From the NCBI GenBank assembly GCA_022710975.1, contig JAKLGA010000023.1, positions 1 through 64,000 on the forward strand: a stretch of 64,000 nt of DNA, read 5' to 3'. Each line of letters opens with the position of its first letter. The first letter of the stretch is position 1. Below, one piece after another: positions 31,383 to 44,745 of this stretch. The DNA is from Myxococcota bacterium. Lineage in GTDB: Bacteria; Myxococcota; B64-G9. The notes below the pieces were generated by a model. It did no database searches. It was not told where the DNA came from and was given only the letters and a program-made list of their open reading frames with translations. The position numbers and the translations under genes were made by a program.

Positions 31383-31498
31383 CGGTGTCTCCCTGTCGGG
31401 TCGATTCGCGCGTTTCCTAGCACGTCCGGCCGGGTTTTGGTAGCCTCTTCGCGGCGGGAGGAACGAGGCGTTCTTCTCCGTCTTCTGGGAGCGTGTGG

Positions 31499-34400
31499 AT
31501 GCGCTGCCTCGCAATCGTGTGTACGCTCCTGCTGCTGACCCCTCTGGTCGCGAGCGCCGAGCCCCTGGAGGCGCTGCACGCGAGGGCGCTGCGCGCCTAC
31601 GATCAGGCCATGGAGCACTTCGGTGTGGCGCTGGGGGAGCGGGCCGAGGACGGCTCCGCCGTGCGCCGGCTGCTGACCGCCCAGGTGGCCGAGCTGACCT
31701 GCCTGCGGGGCAGCCGCGAGGGGTGCCTGCAGGCCTCGAGCGCGGCTGGCCGCGCGCTGGGCGAGTACCTCGGCCCGCTGGAGCCGGGCGGGGCGCCCGA
31801 GCCCGCCCGCTGGGCGCGTGCGCGCGCCTTCGTGCTCGAGGTCTACCGTCTGTCCGAGGGCTGGGGCCTCGACAACGCCCTGGCCTCGGAGGCGCTGGGG
31901 TTGTTCGCCCGCCTGGAGGGCGATCACCACCGGGCGCAGGCGCGCGCCGCCGGGCAGGCGCGGCTCGACGCGCTGGTCCTGCGCGCCCGCAAGGCGAGCG
32001 GGGTCGAGGCGCTGTCTGCCTGGGCGGAGGCCTTTCGCCTGGCCGAGCTGATGCTGGACGAGGCCGCCCAGGTGAAGGCGGCCCAGGGGCTGGCCGGGGC
32101 CCTGCTGTCGCTGGGCCCGGGCGGCCTGCCGCCGGGGGCGGACGCCGCCGCGCTGCGGCGCGCGCTGCTCGCCGGCCAGGATCGCCTGGCCATCCTGGGG
32201 CAGGACGACGCGGTCGCCCGCGGCGCGCTCGCCCAGGCCCTGGAGCGGGTCCAGACCCGCGAGCTGGCCGCGCCCGACCTGGTGTTCGACGCGCTGCCCG
32301 CGGCCGAGCGTTTCGAGGTGGACCTCGGCCGCGCGGCCGGCGAGCTGCGCGAGCTGGCGGGGCGCGCGCCGCTGCGGTCCCGGGCCAGCGCGCTGCTGCA
32401 CTTCTTCGCGGCCTACGCCGGCAGCCTGGCCGCCGAGCCGGGGGCCGCCGAGCCGCTCGTGGCCCTGTCCGAGGTACTGGCGCTCACCGATCCGTACCTG
32501 GCGGCGCGGGCCGCGGGCCTGCGCGGACGCGAGGCGCTGCTCGCGGGTGACTTCCATCGGGCCGCGCGCCTGCTCGAGGAGGCCGCCGAGCGCCTGGGCT
32601 CGCTGCCGGGCGCCGCCGCGGTGGCCGGGCTGCTGCAGGCCGCCCAGGCCCAGGCCCTGTTCTACCTCGGTCAGTACGGCCTGGCCGCGGAGGCCTTCGG
32701 CGAGGCCGCCGCGCACCTGGCGGAGCGCCCGGCCGGGGCCACCCAGGCCTACCTGGGCCAGGCCCACGCCCTGCTGTTCGCCGGGCAGCTCCCGGCCGCC
32801 GAGGAAACCCTGCGGCGGGCGGAGGGCCTGCTGGCGCGGGTCGGGGCCGAGCAGCGTCCGTCCATCGCGCGCTCGCTGCGCCTGGACCGGGCCCTGGCGG
32901 ATCTGTCCGCCGGGCGCGGCGAGCAGGCCCTGGCCGGGCTGCGGGCCGTGGCCGAGGAGGCCCGGCAGGCCGGTGACGTCCGCGCCGGAGCCGTGGCCCA
33001 CACCAACCTGGCCGAGCTGCTGAACGATCGCGGCGCCTGGTCCGAGGGGCTGGGCGCGGCCGAGGCGGCGCTGGCCTGGCTCGATCCCGCCAGCCAGGCC
33101 GACGCGGCCTGGCAGGCCTGGACCGAGAAGGGCCGGGCGCTGGCCGGCCTGGGCCAGGGCGCGGCGGCCCAGCGCGCCTTCGGCTCCGCCATGGATCTGG
33201 TGGAGGGGCTGCGGGCGCGCATCGGCGCCGAGGGCGCCCGGCGGTCGTTCGCGGCCGCCAAGGCGCGCCTGTACCGGGCGGCCGTGGCCGGCTGGGTCGA
33301 CCTGGGCGATCGGCGCCAGGCCTTCCTGGTGGCCGAGCGCGCCAGGGGGCGGGCCTTCCTGGACATGCTGGCCGAGCGGCAGCTCACCCTCGGCGATCGG
33401 GAGCGCCAGGCCAGGCTCGGGCCAGCCCGCGAGCGGTTGCTGCGCGACCTGCCGCGGCCCGAGCTGGTGCTCGAGGAGCCGGCCGCCGGCCTGGCCCCGG
33501 CCCGGACCGGCGCGCGGCCCGCGCCGGTCCGGCCCGATCCGCGCTCGGACTGGCGGAGCCTGGTGAGCGTCAACCCGGCGGGCGTCGACGACGTGCGCGG
33601 GCAGCTCGCGCGCGGCGAGGCCCTGGTGGCGTGCTTCCACGACGGCCGCCGGCTGCACTCCTTCCTGGTGCACGCGGGCGGGGTGGAGCTCGAGAGCGCG
33701 GAGGTCGACGAGGAGACCCTGCAGAACCGCACGCTCGCCCTGCTGCGGCTGCTGCGCGACCCGCGCTCGGACGAGGCCGCCATCCGCGAGAAGGGCGAGC
33801 GCCTGCTCACGCTCATGCTGGGGGGCCTGCGGCCGCGGCTGGCCGCCTTCCGCCGGCTGACCTTCGTGCCCTGGGGGCCGCTGCACTACCTGCCGCTGGG
33901 CGCCCTGTGGGACGGGCAGGCATACCTGCTGGATCGCCACGAGCTGGCCGCGGTGCCCTCGGCCTCGGCCCTGGTCATGCTGCGGGCGAGGCTCGCGGCC
34001 CGCGGCGGGCCCAAGGGCGCGCCGCGCGTGCTGGCGCTCGGCGATCCGGCCTCCGACCTGCCCGCGCTCCCGGCCGCCCAGGCCGAGGTGAGGCTGATCG
34101 GCGGGCTGTTCGGCGGCGCCCAGGCCGAGGTGGGCGGGCGGGCCACCAAGCGCCTGTTCCTCGAGCGCGCCCCGGGCGCGGGCCTGATCCACCTGGCCTC
34201 CCACGGCGTGTTCCTGCCCGGCCGGCCGATGGAGTCCTACCTGGCGCTGGCCGGGGACTCGCCCGAGCTCGGGCGCCTGCGCGCCCTGGACGTGCTGGGC
34301 GTCGATCTGCGTCAGGCCCGCCTGGTGACGCTGTCGGCCTGCTCGAGCGGGGAGGTGCAGGTGGAGCAGGGCGACGAGCTCACCGGGCTCACGCGCGCCT

Positions 34401-34609
34401 TCCTGCACGCGGGCGCACCCGCCCTGCTGGCGGCCCTGTGGCCGCTCGAGGATCGCGCCGCCCTGGGGCTGGTGGACCGGCTGTACCGCGAGCTGCGCGG
34501 CGGCAAGGCGCCCGCCGCGGCCTGGGCGCTGGCCGCCCGGGAGCTCAAGTCCCGGCCGGAGCACGCCCACCCGTTCTTCTGGGCGCCGCTGCAGCTCGTC
34601 GGTTCCTGA
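31499..34609 (+). CDS. Exported TPR-CHAT protease-like protein
   Basis: ATG 31499 is chosen over a GTG two codons upstream because GGGAG lies 9 bases before it. The 1036-aa protein has a signal peptide (about 1-21, ASA-E), a long helical TPR solenoid (about 22-690) rich in Ala/Leu/Glu, and a C-terminal CHAT domain (about 715-1036). CHAT is a caspase-like fold; the catalytic pair appears intact, H902 in IHLASHG and C948 in LSACSSG, with the late FLHAGAPALLAALWPLED motif. Most bacterial CHAT proteins are cytoplasmic proteases or scaffolds; here the signal peptide predicts a periplasmic location, which is less usual. It converges on the FHA-GGDEF gene. Confidence 0.85.
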   Translation: MRCLAIVCTLLLLTPLVASAEPLEALHARALRAYDQAMEHFGVALGERAEDGSAVRRLLTAQVAELTCLRGSREGCLQASSAAGRALGEYLGPLEPGGAPEPARWARARAFVLEVYRLSEGWGLDNALASEALGLFARLEGDHHRAQARAAGQARLDALVLRARKASGVEALSAWAEAFRLAELMLDEAAQVKAAQGLAGALLSLGPGGLPPGADAAALRRALLAGQDRLAILGQDDAVARGALAQALERVQTRELAAPDLVFDALPAAERFEVDLGRAAGELRELAGRAPLRSRASALLHFFAAYAGSLAAEPGAAEPLVALSEVLALTDPYLAARAAGLRGREALLAGDFHRAARLLEEAAERLGSLPGAAAVAGLLQAAQAQALFYLGQYGLAAEAFGEAAAHLAERPAGATQAYLGQAHALLFAGQLPAAEETLRRAEGLLARVGAEQRPSIARSLRLDRALADLSAGRGEQALAGLRAVAEEARQAGDVRAGAVAHTNLAELLNDRGAWSEGLGAAEAALAWLDPASQADAAWQAWTEKGRALAGLGQGAAAQRAFGSAMDLVEGLRARIGAEGARRSFAAAKARLYRAAVAGWVDLGDRRQAFLVAERARGRAFLDMLAERQLTLGDRERQARLGPARERLLRDLPRPELVLEEPAAGLAPARTGARPAPVRPDPRSDWRSLVSVNPAGVDDVRGQLARGEALVACFHDGRRLHSFLVHAGGVELESAEVDEETLQNRTLALLRLLRDPRSDEAAIREKGERLLTLMLGGLRPRLAAFRRLTFVPWGPLHYLPLGALWDGQAYLLDRHELAAVPSASALVMLRARLAARGGPKGAPRVLALGDPASDLPALPAAQAEVRLIGGLFGGAQAEVGGRATKRLFLERAPGAGLIHLASHGVFLPGRPMESYLALAGDSPELGRLRALDVLGVDLRQARLVTLSACSSGEVQVEQGDELTGLTRAFLHAGAPALLAALWPLEDRAALGLVDRLYRELRGGKAPAAAWALAARELKSRPEHAHPFFWAPLQLVGS

Positions 34610-37753: not shown

Positions 37754-37784
37754 GGCAGGTCGTTTCCATCGACCTCGCTGAGTG

Positions 37785-37800
37785 AGCAAGTTGGGTGCCA
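37785..37800 (-). promoter_or_regulatory. Perfect sigma54 (-24/-12) promoter
   Basis: Read on the minus strand, TGGCAC-CCAAC-TTGCT matches the consensus TGGCAC-N5-TTGCW at every fixed position. It lies between the sigma54-activator gene (ends 37911) and the lipoprotein gene (starts 37753), about 21 bases from the predicted transcript start to the ATG. It is nested in an inverted repeat (AGTTGGG...CCCAACT). It should control lipoprotein, 35524-37197 and FHA-GGDEF as one unit. Confidence 0.8.
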
Positions 37801-37910
37801 GGCCCGCCTGGGGTTTCCCAACTCCATGCCATGAAAGCGAAAAACCCATCAGCCTCGCCTTCCGTGGGTCTCCCTGGGGGGCACCCACCGCGACATGCGT
37901 GCCAGCCTGC

Positions 37911-39749
<1,839 letters not shown>

Positions 39750-39769: not shown

Positions 39770-40689
39770 TCAGAAACGCAGCTGCCAACCCAGGCCCACG
39801 CCGCCCGGGACGGCCAGCGGCACCAGGCCGCCCGGACCGGGTGGAGGCGCGGCCGGCGCGGACTCGGCGCCCTCGGGGCGCACGGTCTCTTCCCTGACGC
39901 GCTGGAAGGGCTCCACCGTGCTGTCCTCGAAGTAGTAGAAACCATCGGCCACACCGTAGATCCACAGCGCGCCGAAGACGGCCAGGGACGTGTACTGGGT
40001 GATCTGGAAGCCGTTCGCCAGGCCGAGCTCGTCGTGCGCGTAGCGCAGGTCATCGTCCGCCAGGCCCCACACCACCAGCCCGCTCATCACGTTGACCAGC
40101 AGGCTGAGCCCGCCGGTCACCGCCAGCGCGATGCCCTTGGTGCGATGGCCGTTCTGGAACTGCGGGATGCCGAAGGGCAGCAGGTTGAGCGCCCACCAGT
40201 GCTCGCTGCGCGTGCGCTCCAGGTACACCCGCGTGACCGCGGCCTGGGCCTCCTTGCGCCGGCGCTCCGCCTCCAGGGCCTGCTGCCGCTCGCGCTCGAT
40301 CTGCTCGAGCTTCTCCTTGAGGGCCGGCTCGGCGCGGATGGCGTCGAAGAAGCCGACCGCCGGCGGCGGGATCAGGAAGGGATCCAGGCGGTGCAGCGGG
40401 CGCAGGTAGAGCAGCTCGAGGAGCTCCTCGCGCGACCGGACCTGGTCCCCGGTGTAGAAGTAGGCCAGCCCCAGCATCTCGCGGGCCGCGGCGATGTCCG
40501 CCTCGCGGGTGAGCTGGACGGTCGGCTCGAGCAGCGGGCGGAGCTGCTCGATGGCCTTGCCGAAGTTCTTGTACTCGAACTCCAGGCGGGCCGCCTGGAA
40601 GCGCTCCTCCATCGAGGCGGCCCGCGCCAGGCCGCCCGCCAGGCAGGCGACGAGCGCCAGGACCGCCGGGAGCGCGCGGGTGGCGGAGC

Positions 40690-40693
<4 letters not shown>
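39770..40693 (-). CDS. Exported TPR-like protein with DUF5683-like membrane part
   Basis: The GTG start overlaps the kinase stop (GTGA). The 307-aa product has a signal peptide (about 1-25, ARA-AS) and TPR-like helices (about 27-95, RFQAARLEFEYKNFGKAIEQL...LGLAYFYTGDQVRSREELLELLYL). A charged coiled coil lies at about 118-150. A C-terminal region with NLLPFGIPQFQNGHRTKGIALAVTGG, two hydrophobic helices and YGVADGFYYFED resembles DUF5683-type proteins. It ends in VGLGWQLRF, with a terminal aromatic. Such proteins are found next to Ser/Thr kinases in myxobacteria; function unknown. Confidence 0.72.
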
Positions 40694-42693
<2,000 letters not shown>

Positions 42694-42708: not shown

Positions 42709-42737
42709 ATCATTCCGCGAAGGAACCTGTTTGTCAA
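42709..42737 (-). promoter_or_regulatory. Candidate sigma70 promoter for the kinase gene
   Basis: On the minus strand a consensus TTGACA (42737-42732), a 17-base spacer and AATGAT (42714-42709) end 15 bases before the kinase ATG, predicting a very short leader. Confidence 0.5.
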
Positions 42738-42912
42738 TGCGAGGCCAGCCTGGCGCCTGAGAAAACCACGCCCGGCGTCCGGCGGGGTATGATCCAATTA
42801 TCGTCCCACCTTGGACGGGCGAGCCCCCGGGCGCGATTCATCGCCGAGGCGATGGCGTCCCGACAGGTGAGGGTGTACATTGGGTCAGCCATTGGGGGAC
42901 GGAGGTCGATGG

Positions 42913-44745
42913 ATGGCTGGCGGCACATTCCTGGACGTGATCCGCGCGCGGGTGACCGAGACCCCTGAGCGATCGGCCCTGCTCCACTGCGTCGGGGGCA
43001 CCTGGGAATCCATGTCCTGGGGGGAGGTGGGACGGCTGACGGACCACCTGGCCTGCGGGCTGTTGAACCTGGGGCTCGCCCCCGGCGAGCGGGTGGGGCT
43101 CCTGTGCCGCAGTCGGCTGGAGTGGGTGCTGGCCGATCTCGGCATCCTGAAGGCCGGGTGCGTCACCGTGCCGGTCCACGCCAACGCGGTGGCCGGGGAG
43201 GTGCAGCACGTCCTGGGGCACTCCCGCGCCCGGGCGGTGTTCGTGGAGACCGCGGCCGATCTCGCCAAGCTGAGGTGCCTGTCCTGCGGGCTGGCCCTGG
43301 AGCGATCGGTGGTGATGCGGGGCGCCTCCCACGGGCAGGGAGAGCTGCCCTGGGACGAACTCCTGGCCATGGGCCGAGCCCGCCAGGCCGAGCAGCCCGG
43401 GGCGCTGGCTGCGCGCCAGGCCGAGGTGGCGCCGCCCCAGCTCGCCACCCTGGTGTACACCTCGGGCACGACCGGCCCCCCCAAGGGCGTCATGCTGACC
43501 CAGGCGAACCTCGTCTTCCAGGTGGAGGCGCTGGCCGGCGTGATGCGGGGTCTGTTCGGGCCGGACGACGTGCACCTCATGTGCCTGCCGCTGAGCCACA
43601 TCCTGGCACGCTCCATGGTGCTGGCCGCGGTGCGGGTGGGCTACACCACAGCCTTCTCCACCGGGCTCGACGCCCTGGAGCGCGAGTTCGGCGAGGTGCG
43701 GCCCACCTTCGTCACCGTGGTGCCGGCCATGCTGGACCAGCTCCAGATCGCCATCCGGGCCGAGGCCGAGAGCCGCTCCTTCGTCCTGCGACGGGCCTTC
43801 CGCTGGGCCGAGGGCGTGGGACGCGAGGTGCTGCAGCGCCGAGCGCGGCGTGAACCCCTGTCGCTCACCCTGGGCGCGCGGGCCGCGCTGGCCAGGGCGG
43901 TCGTGCTCGGCCCCTCGCTGACGGAGCGGTTCGGCGGCCGGCTCAAGTACTTCATCAGCGGCGGCGCGCCGCTGGCGCCGGAGGTGGCCGAGTTCTTCAC
44001 CAGCCTGGGCCTGCCGGTGCTGGAGGGCTACGGCCTCACGGAGAACGTGGGGGCGCTGAGCGTCAACCGGCCAGAGCGTTTCCGGCTGGGGAGCGTGGGG
44101 CCCCCCATCCCCGGGGTGGAGGTGCGCCTGGCCGCGGACGGGGAGATCCTGGCCCGCGGGCCGAACGTGATGGTGGGCTACTTCGAGGACAAGGCCGCCA
44201 CCGCCGAGGCGCTGGACGCCGAGGGCTTCCTGCACACCGGCGACCTGGGCAGCCTGGACGCCGAGGGCTTTCTGCGCGTCACCGGCCGCAAGAAGGATCT
44301 GATCGTCACCTCCGGCGGCAAGAAGGTCTCGCCCCAGAACATCGAGCGCATGCTGCAGACCAGCGCCTTCCTGGAGCAGGCCATGGTGTTCGGCGACGGC
44401 CAGGACTACCTGGTGGCGCTGCTGTCGCTGCGGCAGGAGCGCGTCCAGCGCTTCGCCGAGGCCGAGGGCCTGCCGTTCGACAAGCTGTCGGAGCTGGCCT
44501 GCCACCCGCGGGTGCTGGAGGCGGTGCAGCGCGAGATCGACGCCTTCAACGCCCGGCTGGCCAGCCACGAGACCATCCGCCGCTTCACCATCCTGCCCCA
44601 GCCGCTGCGGGTGGACACCGGCGAGGTGACCGCGACCCTCAAGCTCCGGCGCCAGGAGGTGGCCCTGCGCTACCGCGAGCTCATCGCGGCCATGTACGAG
44701 GATCCCAGCCGGGGCCCCCAGGCCCTGTGCGCGGAGGAGCCATGA
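42913..44745 (+). CDS. AMP-forming long-chain acyl-CoA synthetase
   Basis: ATG 42913 is chosen because GGAGGT lies 7 bases upstream. The 610-aa enzyme belongs to the ANL superfamily. Signatures include the P-loop TSGTTGPPKGVM (about residue 185), GYGLTENVG (A5), LHTGDLG (A7), TGRKKDLIVTSGGKKVSP (A8) and the C-terminal catalytic Lys in TATLKLRR. The insert between A3 and A5 and the overall length fit FadD15-like long-chain fatty acid:CoA ligases. It would activate fatty acids with ATP and CoA at the inner face of the membrane. The next gene overlaps its stop codon. Confidence 0.92.
   Translation: MAGGTFLDVIRARVTETPERSALLHCVGGTWESMSWGEVGRLTDHLACGLLNLGLAPGERVGLLCRSRLEWVLADLGILKAGCVTVPVHANAVAGEVQHVLGHSRARAVFVETAADLAKLRCLSCGLALERSVVMRGASHGQGELPWDELLAMGRARQAEQPGALAARQAEVAPPQLATLVYTSGTTGPPKGVMLTQANLVFQVEALAGVMRGLFGPDDVHLMCLPLSHILARSMVLAAVRVGYTTAFSTGLDALEREFGEVRPTFVTVVPAMLDQLQIAIRAEAESRSFVLRRAFRWAEGVGREVLQRRARREPLSLTLGARAALARAVVLGPSLTERFGGRLKYFISGGAPLAPEVAEFFTSLGLPVLEGYGLTENVGALSVNRPERFRLGSVGPPIPGVEVRLAADGEILARGPNVMVGYFEDKAATAEALDAEGFLHTGDLGSLDAEGFLRVTGRKKDLIVTSGGKKVSPQNIERMLQTSAFLEQAMVFGDGQDYLVALLSLRQERVQRFAEAEGLPFDKLSELACHPRVLEAVQREIDAFNARLASHETIRRFTILPQPLRVDTGEVTATLKLRRQEVALRYRELIAAMYEDPSRGPQALCAEEP

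Follow-up and report, generated by a model that had tools for sequence, protein, structure and literature searches.

A kinase-activator operon and the genes that follow it

The window analysed here is a 64-kb stretch of DNA from a 7.13-Mb Myxococcota genome (G000:C16). On its minus strand lies an operon that opens with a Ser/Thr protein kinase gene (40690..42693; PF00069, E 9e-54), followed by an uncharacterised gene without a Pfam family (39770..40693) and by the gene of a sigma54 activator (EBP), P0002 (37911..39749). A sigma70-like promoter candidate, TTGACA-17-AATGAT (42709..42737, minus strand), is called before the kinase gene from its consensus match of 10/12. The order kinase, uncharacterised gene, EBP and lipoprotein, often continued by a CarboxypepD_reg gene, is found phylum-wide. 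A homolog of the lipoprotein occurs in 116 of 195 genomes, and its gene is present in all nine examined genomes of the window's class. The kinase, as the conserved upstream partner gene of this module, had gone unmentioned in the preliminary description of the locus. Divergent from it is a gene for an AMP-binding enzyme (window 42880-44745), which is kept beside the module in several class genomes.

P0002 has the architecture FHA-GAF-AAA+(GAFTGA)-HTH_8, as assigned from Pfam, motifs, HTH conservation and an FHA alignment. Its frame ends with the stop codon at 37911, and the FHA, GAF, sigma54 AAA+ and Fis-type HTH domains are all intact. With Walker A (GETGTGKE), GAFTGA and Walker B in its AAA+ domain it belongs to the NtrC-type EBPs, and its HTH is strongly conserved. 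The FHA domain lacks the GR arginine and the serine of the phosphothreonine pocket, both in the window protein and in most orthologs. P0002 does not qualify as an FHA-domain EBP that reads phosphothreonine, which disfavours a simple scheme in which the kinase acts on the EBP through its FHA domain. Ligand sensing by the GAF domain would be just as likely.

The first gene downstream, also on the minus strand, encodes a putative lipoprotein, P0001 (37229..37753), which starts at ATG 37753 and carries the lipobox FAGGC. The lipobox cysteine is invariant in alignment A1, and a shift in GC3 marks the probable beginning of the gene; start codon and n-region are ambiguous. A Pfam search with P0001 returned no family, and a search with its model structure (mean pLDDT 73) gave only weak beta-sandwich matches, none at E <= 0.001. 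Next comes a CarboxypepD_reg protein with an N-terminal signal-like segment, P0003 (35524..37197, minus strand), assigned by Pfam and conserved beside P0001. The gene of the third protein, P0004 (34616..35527, minus strand), overlaps that of P0003 by 4 nt. P0004 has an FHA domain with the canonical residues GR, SWRH and STNGT, followed by a GGDEF domain with an intact RFGGDEF motif; the RxxD inhibitory site is absent. Its best full-length solved relative is 6hbz, aligned along FHA and GGDEF (residues 34-302), which together with the Pfam domains and their order makes it a putative DgcB-like FHA-GGDEF diguanylate cyclase. The two FHA domains of the locus hence differ, being degenerate in the EBP and canonical in the GGDEF protein, so that the signalling partner of the kinase may be the cyclase and not the EBP. 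Convergent with these genes is a CHAT-domain gene (window 31493-34609) that also stays beside the module in several class genomes. The preliminary description had placed an intact sigma54 activator gene directly upstream of the promoter and, downstream, a lipoprotein, a surface protein and an FHA-GGDEF protein in this order; the genes are indeed arranged in this way.

A sigma54 promoter and its upstream dyad

Between the EBP stop codon and the lipoprotein gene lies the -24/-12 element TGGCAC-CCAAC-TTGCT (TGGCACCCAACTTGCT; 37785..37800, minus strand). Read from 37800 to 37785 it shows no mismatch to TGGCACN5TTGCW and is the sole exact match in the window, which agrees with the exact TGGCAC-N5-TTGCT claimed before. 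It carries the GG (-24) and GC (-12) of sigma54 promoters, set 10 bases apart, and this GG-N10-GC pattern recurs in 18 of 18 loci. Counting from the -12 C at 37786, the predicted +1 falls at 37774. The distance from there to ATG 37753 is 21 nt, the value given in the preliminary description, and this start is supported by GC3.

Could such a match have arisen by chance? In the whole genome, the exact pattern has 35 matches, compared to a single one for the reversed control pattern. At 29 of these 35 sites a gene starts on the same strand 9-94 nt after the predicted +1, as judged with a heuristic, GC3-based gene caller; notwithstanding this heuristic, the set acts like real promoters. One of the sites (L038) precedes a gene of the PspA family, and pspA is a classical sigma54 target. 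The machinery is present as well: rpoN occurs once (one PF04552 match, RpoN box ARRTVAKYRE), and 41 full EBP domains are encoded.

The same element is found between the EBP stop codon and the lipoprotein gene in all nine class genomes, with 10/10 letters in seven of them and one mismatch (9/10) in two. Shuffling gives P <= 0.001 in those seven class genomes and 0.006-0.011 in the other two. Several other Myxococcota carry it at the same place, so the search for this promoter in orthologous loci that had been suggested for the locus has a positive answer. The match at 37785-37800 is well above chance level; genome enrichment, the positions of gene starts and the shuffle P values in class genomes rule out a chance origin.

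The other 34 exact sites (L029-L062) offer a view of the wider regulon. Many of their downstream genes begin with signal peptides or lipoboxes, and the products include trypsin-like, CarboxypepD_reg, VWA, MG2, CUB and LolA-like proteins; the sigma54 regulon of this lineage therefore seems rich in exported proteins. A different case is L031 (G000:C1:757964-757979), where the promoter precedes a small protein with a match to PycTM (Pycsar effector) at E 1e-8.

Besides the promoter, the locus holds a second element that the preliminary description had missed, although it had called for a search for conserved upstream activator sites. This is the palindrome TGGCA-CGCA-TGTCGC (TGGCACGCATGTCGC; 37890..37904, minus strand), situated just past the EBP stop codon and about 103-104 bp upstream of the -24 T. 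Of the 12 loci tested first, 11 contain the pattern [CTA]G[AG]C[AG]-N4-TGTC[AG], compared to 0.035 expected from dinucleotide shuffles, a figure that is optimistic because the pattern was derived from these same sequences. Spacing was not used in choosing the pattern, and it proves to be nearly fixed: 102-104 bp from dyad to -24 T in seven of the eight dyad-bearing class genomes. The eighth has 115 bp, longer by roughly one turn of the helix, and loci of other families have 90-99 bp. In the 12-locus test the pattern was not found in L071. A conserved dyad 90-115 bp upstream in 11/12 loci has the properties of an upstream activator site, and we regard it as a predicted one.

In other families, dyad and -24/-12-like elements also stand ahead of the gene in the lipoprotein position (L116, L119, L122, L144 and L145). 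In L119 they remain with the lipoprotein gene despite a gap of about 2 kb to the EBP gene. In L113-L115, L117, L118 and L129-L131, likewise from other families, the EBP gene directly adjoins the lipoprotein gene, and neither element is present.

Genome-wide, TGRCAN4TGTCRC has exactly two copies, one of them at the window locus. The other (C12:234972, L090) was considered as a further promoter site and rejected, as a -24/-12 element is absent nearby. One-mismatch dyads number 163, only about 1.5 times the reversed control, and are uninformative by themselves for this reason when a promoter is not close. Two of them do lie upstream of exact sigma54 promoters. At L029 (G000:C1:134511-134526, minus strand) the dyad TGACAGGAATGTCGT is located 101 bp upstream of the promoter, and no protein gene is called in the roughly 310 nt between the promoter and a radical-SAM gene; L029 is a candidate for a small RNA and for a second target of P0002. 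An Rfam search of the gene-poor sigma54 loci, L029 included, and of the window locus gave no match. At L059 (G000:C28:136966-136981, plus strand) the dyad TGACAGAGATGTCGT is found 112 bp upstream, and the promoter precedes a 127-residue protein without a Pfam family, a possible further target of the same EBP.

With 41 full EBP domains in the genome, another EBP could act at the window promoter while P0002 acts elsewhere. This alternative, to which the sheer number of EBPs and the two promoters with one-mismatch dyads at 101 and 112 bp lend some weight, is quite improbable in our judgement: in most loci the dyad immediately follows the EBP gene, it is near-unique in the genome, and the HTH of P0002 is under strong conservation. 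The dyad is very likely the enhancer site of P0002, as far as sequence can tell.

A promoter in frame with the lipoprotein gene

The oddest aspect of the locus concerns the relation of the promoter to the lipoprotein reading frame. The open frame of P0001 extends upstream, beyond ATG 37849, and thus runs across the element. After ATG 37753, 12 of 12 codons end in G or C, compared to about 10 of 23 before it and to a fraction of 0.98 in local coding DNA; the start assumed in the preliminary description is therefore the best supported one in this genome. The signal peptide that begins there (MAILILTFAGGC) is unusually short and uncharged. Across families, the promoter occupies one fixed frame of the lipoprotein ORF, NTG GCA CNN NNN TTG C, in 18/18 loci. 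Elsewhere in the genome, 32 sigma54 sites have a called gene, and 11 of them are in that frame, which is chance level. In the frame-locked loci the distance from the element to the lipobox cysteine varies from 13 to about 33 codons.

The first question this raises is whether the element is a promoter at all. In most class genomes it encodes L-A-P-x-L-[R/L] in frame, and the match might be a by-product of a conserved N-terminal peptide, LAPxLR. Ala is encoded by GCA and Leu by TTG in 12 of 12 tested loci; local codon usage puts the probability of this at about 1e-29, a value that is overstated because the loci were found by the promoter pattern and were treated as independent. Even so, codon usage argues against coding alone as the source of the conservation. 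Together with the 35-to-1 enrichment in the genome and an upstream dyad that holds its distance, this makes a peptide without a promoter a scarcely credible explanation.

A second alternative keeps the promoter and places it within the 5' portion of the lipoprotein coding sequence, where it would serve the downstream genes, the lipoprotein being translated mainly from kinase-EBP read-through. There are precedents for sigma54 promoters within genes in M. xanthus (PMC7910581) and E. coli (PMC4591121). The frame lock itself (18/18 loci compared to 11/32 elsewhere in the genome) points the same way, as do L063, L065, L077, L116, L120 and L145, which have no credible start codon after the predicted +1. 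On the other hand, GC3 in the window sets the start at ATG 37753, after +1, and good signal peptides start after +1 in L064, L068, L071, L078, L119, L132 and L144. In L064, L067 and L068, in-frame stops exclude ATG, GTG and TTG starts upstream of the element. Overall, we consider a promoter that bypasses the lipoprotein in this manner unlikely.

Since TTG is in frame in 18/18 loci, a universal TTG start inside the -12 element was considered too. It was discarded because the signal peptide would then be only 8 residues long in L145 and would carry no charge in L065 and L077. If mixed or dual starts yielded one mature lipoprotein, this might reconcile the frame lock with the start-codon data. 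Tentatively, and with the odds clearly against it, we put forward that the promoter sits within the part of its first target gene that encodes the signal peptide, and that two starts lead to the same mature lipoprotein. If this were true, a long form would come from kinase-EBP read-through and a short form or a leaderless mRNA from the sigma54 transcript, and basal and induced synthesis would share one frame-locked element. The frame lock ties promoter and signal peptide together in an odd constraint, one that a simple experiment may be enough to account for.

The proposed circuit, its output and related systems

Judged by its sequence, the locus holds a genuine sigma54 promoter, deeply conserved and accompanied by an upstream site of its own and by a neighbouring activator. 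Promoter match, conservation, a palindrome at near-fixed spacing, an intact EBP and a tight gene order can all be read from the DNA. We give a probability of roughly 0.82 to the reading that this promoter is switched by the adjacent upstream EBP, with the whole circuit as follows. P0002 would be made together with the Ser/Thr kinase, and the kinase and/or the GAF domain would gate it. A P0002 dimer would bind the dyad TGGCA-N4-TGTCGC, just past its own stop codon, via the Fis-type HTH. The DNA would then loop over about 103 bp, and the GAFTGA loop and ATP hydrolysis would remodel the waiting sigma54 polymerase, so that transcription would begin near 37774. One transcript would presumably cover the lipoprotein gene and that of the CarboxypepD_reg protein, joined in this genome and in some relatives by the gene of the FHA diguanylate cyclase. 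Several observations speak against this reading: the frame lock and the relatives with no credible start after +1, the short and uncharged signal peptide from ATG 37753, the number of other EBPs, the lack of a dyad in L071 and the families in which both elements are absent.

What is the circuit for? The preliminary description had drawn a line from activator to promoter to c-di-GMP production. The first half is strongly supported by a promoter in 9/9 class genomes and by a near-unique dyad at a nearly fixed distance. The second half fares differently. The FHA-GGDEF gene is present in five of eight assessable class loci (the window's own, L065, L067, L068 and L069) and absent in L063, L064 and L071, which retain promoter and lipoprotein; L066 was left out of the count because a contig end cuts the locus, and the gene would lie beyond it if present. 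In the outside-family loci examined, a GGDEF gene is not part of the module. One might still suppose that c-di-GMP is the main purpose, so that the EBP would serve to switch on the diguanylate cyclase, with two accessory genes beside it, and the 4-nt overlap of P0004 with P0003, the intact GGDEF motif and the canonical FHA domain would fit. Given the genomes that do without the gene, this is improbable. The conserved targets appear to be the lipoprotein and the CarboxypepD_reg protein, and the module would primarily control a cell-surface lipoprotein system. Because the gene is present in 5/8 class loci and absent in 3/8, c-di-GMP looks like an accessory, lineage-specific branch. In place of the c-di-GMP output assumed before, the locus is thus expected to serve a conserved surface lipoprotein system, to which c-di-GMP is added in some lineages.

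A literature search did not find the phylum-wide kinase / EBP / lipoprotein module described. For this module the locus supplies a complete, testable pair of regulator and DNA site, in lineages that only metagenomes have revealed so far. FHA-domain EBPs of Myxococcus xanthus were reportedly described by Jelsbak in 2005; to our knowledge, a local target site of this kind is not known for them. Like these proteins, P0002 is a Myxococcota protein that combines FHA, sigma54 AAA+ and HTH, while its FHA domain, and likewise that of most orthologs, is devoid of the usual phosphothreonine residues.

In Bdellovibrio DgcB (FHA-GGDEF, PDB 6hbz) the FHA domain recognises the protein's own phosphorylated tail (PMC6733907). 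P0004 resembles it along FHA and GGDEF and in having a Thr-containing N-terminal tail, but its gene shares a putative sigma54 operon with genes for surface proteins. Sigma54 promoters at or inside a coding frame are known from M. xanthus and E. coli; the element described here has such a position too, but its frame relation is kept in 18/18 loci and across families.

EBP genes beside their own sigma54-dependent operon have been surveyed in Desulfovibrio, with Pseudomonas putida cited there (PMC4641369). The window locus shares with these systems the EBP gene, the -24/-12 promoter with an upstream activating site about 100 bp away and the neighbouring target operon; it differs from them in that its EBP has FHA-GAF input domains and shares an operon with a Ser/Thr kinase, in having a distinct dyad and in targets that are surface proteins. 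A sigma54 promoter with an upstream site and an adjacent EBP is a kind of system that is already known, and the locus adds a new example to it.
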